From the NCBI RefSeq assembly GCF_000189635.1, contig NW_002476358.1, positions 448,616-512,615 of the forward strand: a DNA stretch of 64,000 nucleotides. Direction: 5' to 3'. Below, one piece after another: positions 3,686 through 22,615 of this stretch. Numbering within the stretch: the first letter of the stretch is position 1; each line of letters opens with the position of its first letter. The position numbers were made by a program, and so were the translations under genes. The notes under the pieces were generated by a model. That model did no database searches. It had not been told where the DNA came from and worked only from the letters and a program-made list of their open reading frames with translations. The DNA comes from Tetrahymena thermophila SB210 (taxonomy: Eukaryota > Ciliophora > Oligohymenophorea > Hymenostomatida > Tetrahymenidae).

Positions 3686-4439
3686 TTGTCTTTTATTCTT
3701 TTTCTTAAGTATATTAGTTTATTCTAAAAAATTTATTTGTGGCAAATTATTTATTTTGAACTTTATAAAATATAGATTGAATTATTTATAATATATAATA
3801 TTGCTTATTCTGGTCTGCCTTAATTGTAGCAATAATAAAACATTAAAATTAAACAACAAATCTCTAACTTTTCAAAAAAATTAATTTATTTTAATAATAT
3901 TTATTTTAAAATTCTTTTTTAGATTTAATTATTTACTATTACAAAAAATGTAAATTTAAATTTTAAATTATTTATTATTAAAAACTGAAATAGAAAAAAA
4001 TTCAAAATTTTCATTAGATTAAATCAAAATTTAGTTTGATTAATAAATTAATTAATTAATTCTTTGCGTGATTAAAACAGATTGATATTTTTTGAAAGAA
4101 GCAAATGTAAATTGTTCTATTTTATTAAAAAAATTGAATTTTATATCATAATTTATCATATAGCAACTCCTTCAGAAGAAAATTTGGCTGATCAAGTAGC
4201 TAAATCCTTTTACAATTTTCAATAGCGTACAATCATAAAATAAATAAATAAACAAAAAGAAATATTTAATATAGAGTTTCAATCAATTAATAAAAAAATA
4301 ATCTAAAGAGATTAATCAAAAAAGAAATAATATAAATAAATTTCAAAGCAAAAAATAAATAAATTTGTTAATCGTCTGACAGAAAGCAAGTAAAAAAAAA
4401 TAATAATAATTATCAAAAACTATAGGAAAATTAATACAC
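3686..4439. other. Spacer between divergent genes
   Basis: This is the shared upstream region of the 99-aa gene and the CHMP1 gene. It is A/T-rich with several AATTAATT-type runs. A short coding-like patch lies at 4163-4225 (see findings). No promoter element could be assigned. Confidence 0.5.
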
Positions 4440-5078
4440 ATGGGAGGAAGTTAACCTAAACCAGCACCAGTCAAGCAACCCACAATGGATGAAATTCTTA
4501 TTGATATGAGAATGGCTGCTAAAAGATTCGAAAATGATGCTAGAAGAGCTGAAAAGGAAAAAGCAAAATAATTTGAAAAAGCCTAACAAGCACTTAAAAA
4601 GAATAATGAGGAGGGTGCCAAGATGTACTTATAAAATATGATGCAAAAAGACAAAGAAATGAAAATGATGTAAAGAATGGCAAACAAACTTGATTCGTTA
4701 TAAATTACTATTAAAAGTAACACCAGCAGTACTGTAATGATGTAATAAATTAACAAAATTGCTCCTATTCTTTATAACTAATCTCAACAAATCCCTACCG
4801 AGTAGATCTATTCTGATATGGACAGATTTGAAAAATCTATGGATGAAATAATGGTTACTGGTAAGGTTATGGATGAAGTTTTAAATAACCAATATGGAAA
4901 CGATGTTCAAGCTAATCAAAACGTAGATGCTATGCTCAACTAATTGAAGTTAGAGAATCTCAATAGTATTTAGAATAACTTAAATGGAGATAATATGCAA
5001 ATGTTCAAAGACTTAAAATAAAATGAATTTTAAGCTCAAAATAACAATAATTAAGTAATCAACAATCAAAACAAGTGA
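4440..5078 (+). CDS. CHMP1/Vps46-like ESCRT-III subunit, 212 aa
   Basis: A single intronless frame of 639 nt runs from ATG (context ACACATGGG) to TGA at 5076. After a short N-terminal leader ending in KQPTMDEI, the protein has the basic first helix of ESCRT-III (DMRMAAKRFENDARRAEKEK). A second helix follows (ALKKNNEEGAKMYLQNMMQKDKE), then the RMANKLDSLQ segment typical of CHMP1. The acidic C-terminal part has MDRFEKSMDEIM and VDAMLNQLKLENL. CHMP1 acts late in ESCRT-III polymers and recruits Vps4 in endosomal sorting and abscission; that role is known for the family and inferred here. The usual C-terminal MIM helix is not obvious, because the protein ends in Asn/Gln-rich sequence. The length is close to the family's about 200 residues. 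Confidence 0.85.
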
Positions 5079-6471
5079 AAAAATATTTAAGAATAATATA
5101 TTAAAAACCTTCTAAAAAATAAATCATTATTATTATTATTATTAAAGTTTTCTATTACATTATAGTAAAATATAATTTATGTGTTTCTCTAAATTCAACC
5201 TTTTTTTGATTCTATATCATAAATGTTTATGCAGTGCAGTATATTTATTGATTCACAAGCCAGCCTATTATATATTTCTTTAAATCATTTTATTAAAAAA
5301 AATAGAAATTTATCTGCTTTCTCTTAGAATTTTTGTTTGTATTTGAAATTATTGTAAAACTATAGTGATATAATATCATATTCTAATTTCAAACTGCTGA
5401 TTAGATAGCTTAAAAAATTATCTCCTAATTAATGAATTTTTATAAATTTATAAAATTATGCATGTAATTCTAATAAAACATAAATAAATGTATACATTGT
5501 GAATTTTGTTATTATGTGTTTTAAATATGATTATAATTACAACAAAATTGATTTAAAGGTAGTTGATTTTCTATTGATGCTATCCCTCAATTATACTAAA
5601 ATATCTAAAATTTAGACCTTGTAGTTTTAATCTAATTTAATTATTGTAAATAATTCAAATCCTTATGAGGAAACTCAAGAAATTTTTGTTATAGCTTTTT
5701 AAATTTTTATTTTAAAAATTTTTTTTAATTTGCTAAAAAAACAGTCATTTATTTAAATATTATTTACTTTTTTATTTTCTTTTATCAATTTATTATAATG
5801 TAATATTATGAATAGATTTTCTTAAATGAAAAAGTGTTTAATTAATTTTAGTATTTTAAATTTTTTTAATGCCTTTTCCTAATATGCTTGGTATATTACT
5901 ATCTTTTAATTAATTATTTAGACAAAATATGATTATCTTTTTCTAATTAAAATACTATTAAAAAGTCAAAATAATTTTCAAAAATTAAACTTCTTAAATA
6001 GATTCAAAATTTAAGCATTTAGGTTAATTTAAAAAGTAAAATATATATTTCATTACTATTAATTGTATTGGGTTACACTAATAAATAAAATTTTGGTTGG
6101 TTTTTAACAAGCAATTCAAATAATAATAAATTTTTTATTATCTTGAATATTTAAGAATCTAATTTTAGTTTCTATTTGAATAAAGATATATTAAAATTTT
6201 ATTTTAAAATAAATAATTATTTTATATTTTATTTTTATATTAACTGTCATTAAAACAATCATAATATTTAAGGATATGTTTTAAAAAATGGTAATTAATT
6301 GAGCTGTTAAGGGTATTAAAAGCTTTAATTGTAGAAATTTTTATTATTTCAAAAATTTAAAAACCAAACAATCTTTATATGTATATTATGCTTCATAGTA
6401 AAATTTATATCTATTTAGATTTTGGCGATAATTTGATCTAAAATTTATATTGATAAATAAAAATTAAATAA
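5079..6471. other. Gene-free A/T-rich interval
   Basis: This covers the downstream flank of CHMP1 and the upstream flank of the pseudokinase gene. It is poly-A/T-rich with (ATT)n at about 5127-5145. No coding frame or RNA gene was recognised. Confidence 0.6.
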
Positions 6472-9264
6472 ATGGGAAAATGTATTAGCCACATAACTAG
6501 AAAAGATTGGTATAAGAACTGCAACAAGGGTTGCTTATATTGTTTTGGATATAACTGTGATATGTGTGCAGTTGATTTACAAGATGGATGGAATAGATGT
6601 TGTGATGTTTTGTGCTTTTTTTGTACTTTTAGTTGCTGCTAATGTTAATGTACTCTAATCAAAAATTGCTACCATGGAATAATGAATAAAATTGAGCCTT
6701 GCTGTAGGTAAATTACTCATTAACTCTTTTAAAATTACATAAATTCTTACATACTAATAAGTGCATGTGGTAGACTAAATGATAAATTACTTAAATTTTG
6801 CTAAAATGAATGTGATGATATGTGTGAATGTCATTGCTATTGTGAGAATCCTTGTATAGTTAGGGATGTGAATAACAAATAATTTCTAGAATACATGTCT
6901 GAGTTTAAAATAAAAGTTAATTTTTACAATGATTCAATATTTGGTAATAAAATTTTGTTTGAACTTTCAAGTTTCCATAATTTTGATTTAATTATCTTAA
7001 TTTTAAAGGAGAAGCGTGTATCCTTTAGAAATAATCTACAGGAGAATTGTTTACTGTGAAAGTAATTTAATACAATAATGAAAACAAATTTTTGTAAGGA
7101 GATTAATAATTTAAAAGAAGACTGCAAATATTTCATCCAAATATTGTTAATTTAAAACGTAAGTACTTAATTCTTAATAATATATAAAAATAAAGCAAGT
7201 TTTCGTTTTTGTAATTTAGATGTTGAAAGCTTCACTGAAGATTCATTTTGTAGTTTAAGAATTAAAAATTTTCTATTTTTTGATTTTGTATTAATGGATT
7301 TATAAACTGAGATCAATTATCGAAAAAAGACAAATTGTTTTTTCAAAGAAGAGGAGCTTTGGAATTTAATTGAAGGAACTTTACAAGCTTTGTACTACTT
7401 TTATGAAATTAAATTGGAGCATCAAGGTATAAGAGCTGATAGAATATATGTTAGTTAATTAGGCTAATTTAAAATAGCAGATCCTTATTTACTCTAAAGC
7501 TCTAATAATTTCGATGATGTTAAAGAAGCATACTTTTAATCTGATACCATATCTGAAAATATTTTCTTATCGCCTGACTAATTTTATGTAAGAAAAGCTT
7601 ATTTTATATCAAATAAGTAGATTTGTTTAATTTTTTTTAAAGAAAATAACTTAAGATGATGAATATAAAGCTTCTAATAAATACGAAAATAGATTTAAAT
7701 CTGATATATTTTCTCTAGGAATGATTTTTCTATGTGCAGCATCTCTTGAAAATTTAGCTTCGTTGTATAACTTTGAAGATAGTTGTATCGATTTGCACAG
7801 TCTCAACTTTAAAATAGAAAATACAGCATCAAGGTATAAGTCCTAAATTTTAGGAAGACTATTGTTAGGGATGCTTGAAGAAAATTAAGACAAGAGATTA
7901 GATGCTAAAAAAGCGCTTTTACTTATTCAAACTGAAGACAAAGTTAAGTAATGTATAATAGAATCTAGGACAAATCAGTAATAATAAGGCCTAAAAGATC
8001 TATAAACACCAATAAGTAATTATTAAATCTATTAAGCTGACAAAGAAATAGAATAGTAAATTTGTTTATTTTATAATTAGAATAAAGGAGCTTGAGTGTT
8101 ATAAACGAGATACTGGAGAATGATAACTTCCATTTTTAAAATATTGGAAACAATTCTTTTGAAGATAAGATTTCGAATCCTCTGGAAATGTCGAGAGGAG
8201 GAGGTGGTACAACTTCAAATAAATAAATAACTATTCAGAGTATGTAGACACCAGTAATGAGAAATTAGACAATCAAGCAATTTAGCCCTTATAAATAAGA
8301 ATCTGAATAGGTACTTAAAAGTTTTTATAATTTAGAGTACAAAAAAATAGTTGATGGTCAAATCCTTAATTTTTAATTTACTGGCCTAGGTGAAGATTCA
8401 GAATAAATTTAGCTGTCTGATTTGGGAACTATAGCTGTAAATAATACTTAAAAAACTCTTTTAGAGAGATTGTGGGTTTAGTGTAAAGAAAGCAAATTCA
8501 TTCAAAAAGTGAATTGTTTTAAGAAAAAAAAATAAATTTCAGAACTGTCTCTATCATAAGTAAAATTTGGAATCTTATTCAATGAGAATAGAGATATAAT
8601 TTACGAGGGAAACCTCTATGAAGAAAATATCAAGCATGGGGAAGGAAAGTTGTTTGAAGGAAGCTAGATATATATAGGAAATTTTAGTTTTGATAAAAAA
8701 GATGGCATTGGTAAAATTACTGACTTGCAAGGACATGTTTTATTTGAAGGGAGTTTTGTGAATGATAAAAAAGAAGGTTAAGGAATAGAATATAATATGA
8801 CTTATGATGAAAATTAGCTTATACATTTTAAAAATTTCCATAAAAACTGGAAAAAATTTGAGGGCTAGTACTCAAACAGTAAAAAAAATGGTGAAGGAAT
8901 TTACACTTATCATAACAATCATAAATTTAAGTGTAATTTTATAAACAATTTTGCTGATGGAGAAGGGGTTTATTTAAATGAATAAGATTAAGTACTTTTT
9001 AAAGCTATTTATAAAAAAAACAAAATTTAAAGAGTTATTTAAAACTTTTCTTTATATCCTCAACCATTATCTACAGGTGGAGGACTTTCTCCATAGTAAA
9101 ATTTAAACAATTCTTTTGCTAATTAATCTCACCATTCACTTTTGCAATAAGATTAAGTAATTGAGAACTCTAATCGTATCAACAGTTAACAAGAGATGTA
9201 AAATATTTAAAAACTAGTTAAACAATCTAAAACAGTTGATGTAAGCGACTCTATTTTTAAATGA
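6472..9264 (+). CDS. Acylated pseudokinase with C-terminal MORN repeats, 841 aa
   Basis: There are six exons. Introns lie at 6708-6761, 6944-7008, 7159-7219, 7588-7642 and 8056-8087, the last only 32 nt (35 nt also keeps frame). The spliced length is a multiple of three and ends in TGA. The N-terminus is MGKC followed by a cluster of more than 20 cysteines in the first 110 residues, which suggests myristoylation of Gly2 plus palmitoylation. A protein-kinase fold follows. The ATP-binding lysine is in FTVKVI (about residue 157), then comes HPNIVNLK. The catalytic-loop HRD is replaced by HQG (about 257-259), DFG reads ADPY, and the activation-segment end is SPDQ. Loss of the HRD aspartate predicts no phosphotransfer. 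The C-terminal half has at least four MORN repeats (YEGNLYEEN.KHGEGKLFEG, FEGSFVNDKKEGQG, FEGQYSNSKKNGEG), known to bind membranes or lipids. It is probably a membrane-attached scaffold. Confidence 0.8.
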
Positions 9265-10257
9265 TAAAATATACTCCAAAAACTAATTATTTATTTTAAA
9301 TTTAAATTATTATTTAGTTTTAAAATCAAAAATTAGATTTATTAAAGTATATAATCAAAATGCAAATAATTTATAAAAATATCTTACTTATTTTATTATC
9401 CTTTTATTTTGAATTCTTACAAAATTAAATCAAAAAAATCAACTATTGGCAATAACTTTAAACTTATTAAATGTTTTATTGTTCTAATTTATCTCTACAA
9501 AAAACTTAATGTATAATAAACCCTAATGATCTGCCTGTAGTATTCTGTTATTTATTTGATTATTAATTAAAATGCACATAATGTACCAAGAATGATATAT
9601 GCAAATGATAACAATCATAATTTTCTATCACAAAAATCTAAAATTTGAATATGCATACGAAATAAATAAATATATTTTATAAATTTTTTATGATCAGTGC
9701 CTATATAATGCATGTTGTAACCAAATATTTATTTATTTATTTATTGTTTTCCTTATAGTTTAAGCGAATAATTAGTTTCATTAGAGAAATAAATATTTAT
9801 TAACTAATAAATGAATTCTTGAAGGATGTATTTTTTATAATTTAATTGATTTAATTAATTTAAAACAAAAAACTCTATTTTACACAAAAGTAAAATACAA
9901 TCAATATATTAAATTTGATGATATTTAAATTTGGATATTAAAAATATATTTTATTATTATAAGCAATTAGCTATATACAAATTAGGATGGGTGACTATAA
10001 AGAATTGAATTGAAAATATCAAATAATTTAGTTTTTGAAAGGTAGGGTTGGTAGGTAGGTAGGTAGGTAGGTAGATATGATTTTAATTTGTTATGAATAT
10101 TAAATCTGAGTCTAACTTATTTATTGTAAGTAGTAAGTATTTAGTATCTATTTATAATATTTCGAAAAGTTGCCTTAAAAATCTATTATCTAAAATAAGA
10201 TTATTATATATTTTTTATTGTATGGTTGATTTATTTTTTCTTATATATGCTTCACAA
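9265..10257. other. Interval between convergent genes
   Basis: This holds the 3' flanks of the pseudokinase gene and the minus-strand coiled-coil gene. It is A/T-rich with (TTTA)n near 9730 and a (GTAG)6 microsatellite. No gene was seen. Confidence 0.6.
10051..10074. repeat. (GTAG)6 microsatellite
   Basis: Six perfect GTAG units follow an imperfect GGTAGGGTTG. The G+C content stands out sharply from the flanks. It lies between two convergent genes. Confidence 0.95.
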
Positions 10258-12297
10258 TCATTAATTGAGTATCTAATTTTTTTTAAGCTGTATCAGTGGT
10301 TTATAAGTGAGCCAACTAATAATATTAGTGCAAATTTATTGTATTTCTTAATTATTTAGCTGTTTAGGTCCTGAAGGGTTTTGCTAATTTTGGTTGTTTT
10401 TGTTGTTAAAAATTTAATTTCCTATAAAACCACCACATCCTTAAAAGTTAAACTCTTATGGTGTGTGGTTTAATTTGGATGATTCAATAATCTCATCTTG
10501 ATAAGACGAAGATTTAAGTCCATCATACTGATACTGATTTCCAAAGTCAGAGGCTAACATTACTTTATTCATATTTTTAATAGGATTTTCTAACAGGACT
10601 GTTTATGTTGAAGATGGGTGCTCAGAAGATCTAGTTTTAGTTGAGGATTACTCTGTTGTATTTCCTGAAGATTCATAATAATTATTTTAATTTTTATCTT
10701 CTAATATAAAGGGATGAATATTACTAGCATATTTATTGTTTTTGTGGTATCCATTATTGATTATTTCTTCTCTGTCTGTTTCTGTAACAGAAGAAATAGG
10801 AGAAAAGAAATTTTCGCTGAATTGATCACCAATCTCATCCTTTAAAGAAGTAACTCCTACTTATTCGTAGTGAGCTGAAGTATTTTTACTGATATGCTAA
10901 TGATGCATACCATTTTCATGATGATCTGAAGAAAATGGTAGAGGTATTCCATTTTGTTGCAGATGTCCTAAAGGCATTATAATATTATGATCTGATAAAG
11001 CCTCTTCAATTTGATATTGTATAGATTCTCTTTAGGACATAAGAGCTTAATTTTACTCCAATAATTATCTGCATTACTATTATATTTATTAGATATTCTA
11101 CTTTTATTTCTAATTTTCTGTCATGGAAGTTTCTTGATCTTTTCTCATTTTATTTAATTTATCTTCAAACATCCTGTATTAAGCTTCAATTTGCAAATGC
11201 TCTTTTTGAAGTTTCTTAATAAGAGACTATTGGTCTTCTATTTAAGATTTAATCATTTTTTCCTCATTTAGCAACTGCAGTTTTTTTTCTTTCATTAGCT
11301 TATTTTAAAAGTTTATTTCATCTGTCTTTATTTTAAATTTATTGCTCTCATAAAATTCATTGTCTAGTTCCTTTTGTTTTAAATAAAATAATTCTTTATA
11401 GCATTTAAAACAACAAAGTATTCATACATGATATTAATTTTGAATGAAAAAGATGGAGGGAATTTATTAAATTATACTTTTTTTAAATGTTAAACAATAA
11501 ATAGTTTAAGTATTTTTTAATAGATTAAAATATAGCAAAAATAAGTAAATTAATTGTCTTAGAAACTCATAGCGCAAAAACGATAAAAAGAGTTTGATTA
11601 TTAATTTAATTTAATAGTATATTTTTATGTGCCCAATAGCTAATCTAAATATTAATTTAATACTAGTTTTTTCTTATTCTAATTAGAATTTTATATTTAA
11701 ATTTGAAAAAATATAAATTCCCTTTTATTTTATGAACCAAAATAAAGCTATACAAAATATCTTACCTAAAGTATTTGGCTGCTTTAAAAATTTTGTAGCT
11801 AACTTTTTGCAAGCTGCTATGTCATTTAAATATGTTATTCTTCTTCATTTTGTATTAATTTTTCAAGTTCCTAGTTTTGCTATTCAAAGATCTCTATTTC
11901 TTGCTAAAAGCAATTTATTTATTCTTACTGTCTTTCCTTTTCTTTTTCATATTCTTCCTCTTTTTCTTATCTATTAATACAAATATTTTTTCATTAAAAA
12001 TTAATCCATTATTGTTAATGCATTTATTGAACTATGCTTAATAGTCTGCAAAAAAAGATTAATAAATTTTTTTTTTGTAAGGATTTTGCATTTTATTAAA
12101 TGAAATTAAATTTACCTATCTCTTTTTAACTTTTCTTGTAGGTCAACAAGCGATTCGAGCAACTAGCTTAAAAAGTCTTATTCCTCTAAAATATCTAATT
12201 CACTTTTGTTTTAACTTTCTTACTGCTAATAAATACGCGAATTCATTAGAGTTCTTATTGTTTGCAAATAGATTCCCAAAGATTCTCCTTAATCCAT
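10258..12297 (-). CDS. Hypothetical Gln-rich coiled-coil protein
   Basis: The start at 12297 gives MDQGESLGIYLQTIRTLMNS. Exon 1 (12116-12297) and exon 2 (11766-11970) join in phase across a 145-bp intron and encode Glu/Gln/Lys-rich helices (QEKEEEYEKEKERQ, QQLAKSQLQ). A middle exon in about 11500-11690 is likely but its limits are unsure. The last large exon begins near 11416 and runs to TGA at 10258. It starts with a coiled coil (LQLLNEEKMIKSQIEDQQSL, LQKEHLQIEAQYRMFEDKL), followed by a Ser/Asn/His-rich disordered tail. A CFKC pair precedes the coiled coil if the frame is extended, but no full zinc finger is visible. No family was recognised. Confidence 0.6.
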
Positions 12298-21583: not shown

Positions 21584-22615
21584 ATGGAAGAAGAAACTCA
21601 AGTCAATTGTTCTAATTGCAACAAGCCTCAATTAGCATCTAAAGTTTAATTACATGAAGCATATTGCCTTAGAAATATTAGAAAATGCCCAGACTGTGAA
21701 GAATTTATTGATAAGCGTGAGTTAGAAAACCACAAACAGGAAAAGCATACCAAGTAATAATGCAAATTTTGCTCACAACCATTCCTTCCTAAGGATATGG
21801 ATTAGCACTTATAATAGTGTGTTATGAAGCCATAAAGGTGTACTTATTGCAATTTGGATGTAAATGGTGCAGAATTCGGTGAACACATATAAAATTGTGG
21901 CTCAAGGACACGTGAATGCTTCATATGCAACAAAAGTATTATCCTTTTTAACTTCGAAGAGCATGTGAATAATTGTGTTGGTGTTCCAGAGTAGCCTTAT
22001 GAATCTTAATTCCCTACTCACACCTAAGCCTTTTAAAAACCTAAACCTGGTTAATATAAACCTAGCGAAATCAAACCCTATAGACCATAAGTTACAAATG
22101 TTTCTTCTGCTCGAGTTTAGATAGGAGCAAACAGTAGTATTAAATAGAATGCTAATGACTAAGATAAAGCAGACGAAGAATTTGCTCGTAAACTTTAATT
22201 AGCTCAAGAAAACAATGATTTTGATTAGTTAAAGAAGTTGTAGGAAGAAGAAGATGAAAGGCTAGCTAGAGAATTAAATAAAGATTTCTCTCCTAAAAAT
22301 AAAACTGTATAGTAAGCCTTAAATACTTAAAATAAGCCCAAGTAAAGTTACGATGATTATGACTACAATTATAATTATGAAGAAGATGAGGAAGACAATT
22401 ACCAAAATTTTAATTAAGAAAATGAAATATAGTAATAAGAAATGCTTCAAGCACAACAATATTAGTAAGGCTTGAACAATCCTTTAGTTTTCCCATAGTA
22501 TTAAAAACCAGCAGATAATAAAACAAAAGAATAAAAAGAAATGGAGGAGTTAGGTGAATTTATTGATGATCCTGAACTATAGCAAGCAATTCTTCAAAGC
22601 CAAATGAATAATTGA
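21584..22615 (+). CDS. TRAF-type zinc-finger protein with ubiquitin-interacting motifs, 343 aa
   Basis: A single 1,032-nt frame runs from ATG (AAATTAAAATGG) to TGA. The first 150 residues hold four or five C2HC fingers of TRAF type: CSNCNKPQL..VQLHEAYC, KCPDCEEFI..ELENHKQEKH, QCKFCSQPFL..DMDQHLQQC, RCTYCNLDV..EFGEHIQNC and ECFICNKSI..NFEEHVNNC. The middle is Pro/Gln-rich. Two acidic helices (DEEFARKLQLAQEN and EDERLARELNKDF) and a C-terminal DDPELQQAILQSQ resemble ubiquitin-interacting motifs; the last fits best. The arrangement recalls TRAFD1/XAF1-like finger proteins joined to ubiquitin binders. A role in ubiquitin recognition is inferred from motifs only. Confidence 0.75.

Follow-up and report, generated by a model that had tools for sequence, protein, structure and literature searches.

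In Apicomplexa, MORN repeats occur together with TKL or LRRK-type kinases according to passages of two reports (PMC3227725, PMC4177888), in which TKL-1, TKL-3 and a Plasmodium LRRK-type kinase carry kinase and MORN in one protein. For Plasmodium pTKL, of the TKL group, passages of a further report list two MORN motifs at the N terminus and a kinase domain without key residues at the C terminus, along with a putative N-myristoylation site and SAM, RVxF and BTK-like parts (PMC6544628). A reference title within the same paper names the N-terminal MORN domain of plant PIP5K. For ciliates, passages on the Ichthyophthirius and Tetrahymena kinomes report many expanded, ciliate-specific families and 38 Ichthyophthirius genes that are likely pseudokinases (PMC3341644), and a table row in another paper gives the MORN repeat proteins as a T. 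thermophila gene family with the number 33 (PMC2636879).

The gene analyzed here lies on the forward strand at positions 6472–9264 of the window, the 64,000-nt stretch of the Tetrahymena thermophila SB210 contig NW_002476358.1 that was examined. Like pTKL, its product brings MORN repeats and a degenerate kinase domain together in one alveolate protein, with an N-terminal Gly that may correspond to the putative N-myristoylation site of pTKL. Because apicomplexan TKLs and pTKL also carry MORN and kinase, the combination itself is not new. However, the order of the parts, kinase and then MORN, is the opposite of that in the apicomplexan fusions, which have MORN before the kinase. SAM is present in the apicomplexan TKLs, of which TKL-3 is reported to be active (PMC3227725, PMC4177888), whereas no Pfam SAM match was obtained for the window protein at E 1 and the profile of its family is nearest to NEK structures. 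Plant PIP5K also pairs MORN with a kinase, but its kinase is of the lipid kinase fold and its MORN domain is N-terminal. Among the matches listed from the open-licence literature, no paper on a kinase–MORN fusion in ciliates was found. Passages of PMC3341644 mention neither a MORN fusion nor an MG start; in PMC4143559 the string MORN appears only within the word “morning,” and PMC7586955 contains none of six terms for ciliates or MORN. The kinase–MORN genes described below may already be catalogued as ciliate-specific kinases in the Tetrahymena kinome.

Under the ciliate code, in which TAA and TAG specify Gln and TGA is the only stop, the gene was predicted to consist of six exons encoding 830 aa after removal of five GT-AG introns; the frame runs from the start at 6472 to the TGA at 9262–9264 without an inner TGA. 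Exon 1 (6472–6707) encodes aa 1–79, with the MGKC start and the first part of a Cys-rich stretch. Intron 1 (6708–6761, 54 nt, ends TACTAATAAG) is in frame and therefore possibly retained. Exon 2 (6762–6943) carries the Cys-rich stretch on to its end at about aa 112 (6861) and opens the kinase N-lobe, which continues after intron 2 (6944–7008, 65 nt) in exon 3 (7009–7158) with an ATP-type Lys157 at 7059–7061. Intron 3 (7159–7219, 61 nt) lies at aa 190 in phase 1. The hinge is encoded by exon 4 (7220–7587), in which HQG (7420–7428) replaces HRD and DPY (7480–7488) replaces DFG, and intron 4 (7588–7642, 55 nt) follows at aa 313 in phase 0. Exon 5 (7643–8015) completes the kinase C-lobe (KSDIFSLG, DKR), the Pkinase match ending at aa 404 (about 7918). 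After intron 5 (8016–8080, 65 nt), exon 6 (8081–9264) encodes a linker, the MORN repeats, a Gln-rich tail and the stop. The MORN module spans 8596–9042 (aa 609–757) and contains an insert typical of the family near aa 684–695, ahead of FEGQY (aa 696).

The model was compared with a purpose-written gene finder, whose codon use had been trained on 55 long open frames, drawn from the window and from loci elsewhere in the genome, and whose splice weights were set by hand. Run on 3801–11500 with unforced ends, it returned one gene at exactly 6472–9264 with introns 2–5 as modelled, leaving intron 1 unspliced for an 848-aa product. For intron 5, a rival at 8056–8087 (32 nt) is also in frame, and the total number of in-frame GT-AG pairs is 19, so the linker sequence is uncertain; every one of them yields the kinase–MORN fusion. 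Without splicing, exon 5 meets a stop at 8093. The Cys-rich MGKC start, the kinase fold and the MORN repeats thus stand in one spliced frame closing at the TGA, as the first-pass annotation had proposed.

Both domains were recovered by profile search above their curated cut-offs. Pkinase (PF00069) matched aa 139–404 with an E value of 4e-11 and 43.2 bits (cut-off 31.7), covering profile positions 12–258 of 263. MORN (PF02493) followed behind the kinase with 37.8 bits (cut-off 22.5), bearing out the C-terminal placement claimed earlier, and the module scored alone gave 51.1 bits. A Pfam scan at E 1 returned nothing beyond these two, neither SAM nor any zinc family. When the whole protein was searched against PDB sequences, CDK12 ranked first (aa 133–285), and MORN3 and MORN1 matched aa 610–750. 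A profile of 12 family kinase domains was closest to NEK1/NEK2 among solved kinases (E 3e-24), and a profile of 11 MORN modules to MORN1 and FAP266 (PDB 6t4d, 7sqc; E 2e-44 and 8e-44). A single-sequence fold of the MORN part, which lies in one exon, was poor (pLDDT 43.7), and no conclusion was drawn from it. MORN1 is not known to have a kinase domain.

For the motif calls, the 18 family domains were aligned by MAFFT with L033, a kinase of the same genome with HRD and DFG, as reference; the APE-Glu column was left unused because the outgroup itself lacks Glu there. HQG (aa 257–259), DPY (aa 277–279) and K157 of the window protein align with HRD, DFG and VAIK of L033, in agreement with the earlier reading of a kinase that keeps the ATP lysine and has lost the catalytic Asp. 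Replaced are the Asp and Arg of HRD, the Phe and Gly of DFG and two glycines of the Gly-rich loop; the αC Glu has become Gln, and the catalytic-loop Asn is absent. Of the VAIK Lys, HRD Asp, Gly-rich loop, αC Glu and DFG of an active kinase, only the Lys is intact; the structural F-helix Asp and αI Arg are retained. A pseudokinase lacks at least one of the VAIK Lys, HRD Asp and DFG Asp, and the absence of the HRD Asp places the window protein in this class. Since K157 and the Asp of the DFG position are kept, it could still bind nucleotide.

This protein is not an isolated case. The own-genome search with the spliced protein covered 101 Mb in 445 contigs, with only the best candidates scored, and listed 52 matches. 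A read-through translation of the TERT locus in this genome is identical over 223 residues to the TERT chain of PDB 6d6v, from T. thermophila, apart from a 21-residue insert that is probably an intron, in keeping with T. thermophila or a very near strain. Kinase and MORN matches on one strand within a few kilobases were found at C295, C60, C65, C114 and C184, and gene models with further searches added C264, C324, C214 and C263. T. thermophila therefore holds at least ten kinase–MORN genes including the window gene, the nine others having been modelled with the identical domain order; this lower bound excludes the MORN-module matches at C167, C134, C154, C160, C127 and C279:172283. The first-pass annotation was right about the fusion, but its single-gene view was too narrow, given this number. 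In Pfam searches of the ten genes, MORN was found in all and Pkinase above the cut-off in nine, just so in C264 (33.4 bits) and C324 (33.2 bits). The kinase part of C65/L028 gave no Pfam match at E 0.01, so its assignment rests on alignment to the family. Eight related kinases without MORN (L031, L032, L034, L035, L040, L041, L043 and L045) had no MORN-module match nearby. All 18 genes begin with MG or have MG in frame before the kinase, and the window gene has every family trait: MG start, kinase fold, insert-bearing MORN module and shared introns. The L034 domain gave 55 genomic matches at E 1e-5, among which ordinary kinases are to be expected. A scan of viral_contigs for the spliced protein turned up 25 pattern matches, none of them a relative. 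The MG-start degenerate kinases without MORN have long tails, and the family is probably larger than counted.

Motif loss differed between the two sets of genes. Compared with L033, all 18 rows have lost two Gly-loop glycines, the HRD Arg and the DFG Phe, and an intact HRD was found in none of them. The catalytic Asp is present in two of the ten MORN-fused genes and in seven of the eight MORN-less relatives (Fisher p 0.015, uncorrected for kinship among rows that were themselves collected by similarity to the window protein). The corresponding counts are 8/10 and 5/8 for the Lys, 7/10 and 6/8 for the DFG-position Asp, and 0/10 and 2/8 for the αC Glu. At the HRD position, seven MORN-less relatives have HGD or HCD and one has HKF. 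HGD or HCD with the Asp kept is the non-RD kinase state, and on this evidence these relatives should therefore not be called dead.

The MORN modules of seven kinase-fused and four kinase-less genes were aligned and have a common insert of the type DF-DF---W-KYEG, weakest in L027 and L037; by eye, the C324, C214 and C263 models contain it too. The four kinase-less genes (L037, L038, L039 and L042) are predicted to encode the same module without a kinase and without an MG start, and the insert-bearing module is thus wider than the kinase fusions. In L039, an apparent long coiled coil precedes MORN by eye.

Introns are also shared. Intron 3 of the window gene has counterparts at the same site and in the same phase in L027, L028, L029 and L047; in L030, whose model lacks a short exon, the match was made by eye. 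It was found in none of the eight MORN-less models, of which L035 and L045 are fragments. Intron 2 is common, in position and phase, to the window gene and C184/L030, and intron 4 to these two and L047. A single open frame of 649 codons in L027 spans both the kinase C-lobe and a MORN repeat; for L047 and L049 this single-frame check was negative, and it returned no row for L028. In the kinase tree, a branch supported at 73/82 (mark 95/80) separates the ten MORN-fused rows from the others, and MORN rows were equally clustered in 0 of 500 shuffles. Several branches are long, including those of the window row (1.75) and C264. The tree is suggestive only of a single origin of the MORN-fused members, its support being below 95/80.

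At the N terminus, the window protein begins with MGKC and contains 25 Cys in aa 1–112, 14 of them in the first 60. The Cys background is 1.0%, and ten or more Cys in the first 60 aa occurred in 0 of 43 other predicted proteins. Within the family, C184/L030 has 13 Cys in this interval and the remaining 16 rows have 0–2. The alignment of the window protein with C184/L030 runs through the Cys-rich end and on into the kinase, with identity in 30 of 87 columns in the exon 2 region; the likeness of the Cys-rich parts comes from a tblastn search limited to fetched loci (E 0.011) and pairwise comparison, and a genome search for the module elsewhere matched only the window gene itself. An unforced MG start was predicted in 15 of the 18 family genes, split genes being represented by their first fragment, vs 1 of 43 control proteins with a length of 200 aa or more (Fisher 2e-10); L032, L036 and L045 have a different unforced start, but MG in frame ahead of the kinase. 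As 16 of the 18 rows have MG without a Cys cluster, the glycine appears to be a family feature.

MG with a nearby Cys is the dual acylation form of Src-type kinases and G-alpha, and the product, annotated earlier as doubly acylated, is a putative case. Against a simple PROSITE-type N-myristoylation pattern, 15 of 18 rows passed; the window protein has G2 and Ser6 and fails at Lys3, as does C295/L026, and C184/L030 (MGNICEP) fails at Glu6 and Pro7. Lys3 is tolerated in N-myristoylated neuronal calcium sensors. The CxxC-rich stretch could, moreover, bind metal instead.

We read the window protein, with a probability of about 0.55 and on sequence evidence, as a membrane-associated, catalytically dead kinase-fold scaffold that forms one branch of an expanded T. 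thermophila family. The N-terminal Gly, likely myristoylated, and the Cys cluster, likely palmitoylated, would tether the protein to a membrane, possibly that of the cortex or cilia. The MORN module, of a kind that binds lipid or dimerizes, might provide a second contact, with lipid or the cortical or ciliary cytoskeleton, or serve as a dimer interface. Dead kinase folds are known to act as scaffolds or allosteric partners; without the catalytic Asp, the fold may be a binding surface for a partner, perhaps an active kinase, which it would scaffold or regulate allosterically. The MORN-fused proteins would branch inside the larger set of MG-start degenerate kinases. The sequence gives the predicted gene structure, the domains, the motif loss, the family and the shared introns; for the membrane-tethered scaffold suggested earlier, we infer the lipidation, membrane site, scaffold role and partner. 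Against this reading stand the failed myristoylation pattern, the retained K157 and DFG-position Asp, and the catalytic Asp kept by two MORN members.

The main competitor for the N terminus, tentative and clearly the less probable reading, is that the Cys-rich start is a zinc-type metal-binding module and that tethering is provided elsewhere, such as by MORN or partners. CxxC-like pairs (CLYCFGYNCDMC; CDDMCECHCYC) favor such a module, as does the comparable stretch of C184/L030 behind a start that fails the myristoylation pattern; however, Pfam at E 1 yielded no zinc family, and most family rows have MG without a Cys cluster. It is unlikely, though not negligibly so, that the protein is still an enzyme, an atypical kinase that holds nucleotide through K157 and D277 and uses a rearranged site, in the manner of WNK or SelO, to transfer phosphate or a different group. 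The frequent retention of the Lys and the DFG-position Asp among MORN members and the Asp-keeping HGD/HCD relatives agree with this idea, but the window protein itself lacks the catalytic Asp, the catalytic-loop Asn, the αC Glu and two Gly-loop glycines.

Two further explanations are very improbable. The many in-frame options for intron 5 and the stop in unspliced exon 5 would allow a kinase gene and an adjoining MORN gene to have been fused by a wrong intron, but the gene finder joined them with unforced ends, nine paralogue models have the same order, and L027 holds both parts in one unbroken frame, although L047 and L049 were negative in this check. Decay of a gene free of constraint would account for the long branch and the lost catalytic motifs; against it, six exons remain open over 830 codons with introns placed as in paralogues, the F-helix Asp and αI Arg are kept, and MORN scores above its cut-off.

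With the scaffold reading preferred, the recurrence of such genes in one genome points to a family of likely membrane scaffolds and not to a one-off, and it is this family, in place of a single gene, that is of note. If correct, a model ciliate would hold a whole membrane-type pseudokinase family of fixed architecture, in which a comparison of members with and without the Asp could help to trace the path from kinase to scaffold and to ask whether MORN has taken over from catalysis as the output. More speculatively, MG-start degenerate kinases might have given rise in ciliates to a membrane signalling layer specific to the lineage, with MORN gained once, in one branch, near the loss of the catalytic Asp; the MORN-fused members would be pure membrane–cytoskeleton scaffolds and may have the HGD-type members as partners.

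The one control protein with an MG start is encoded by the upstream neighbor at 4440–5078 (+; 212 aa, MGGSQPKP), an ESCRT-III/CHMP-like protein with a weak Snf7 match (24.8 bits, below the cut-off of 27.3). Downstream, a short intergenic (GGTA)n tandem run was seen by eye at 10050–10074. Farther along, the 343-aa product of a single-exon gene at 21584–22615 (+) matches an XAF1-type zinc finger at 27.5 bits (cut-off 27) and, weakly, the zinc fingers of CEP104/TRAFD1.
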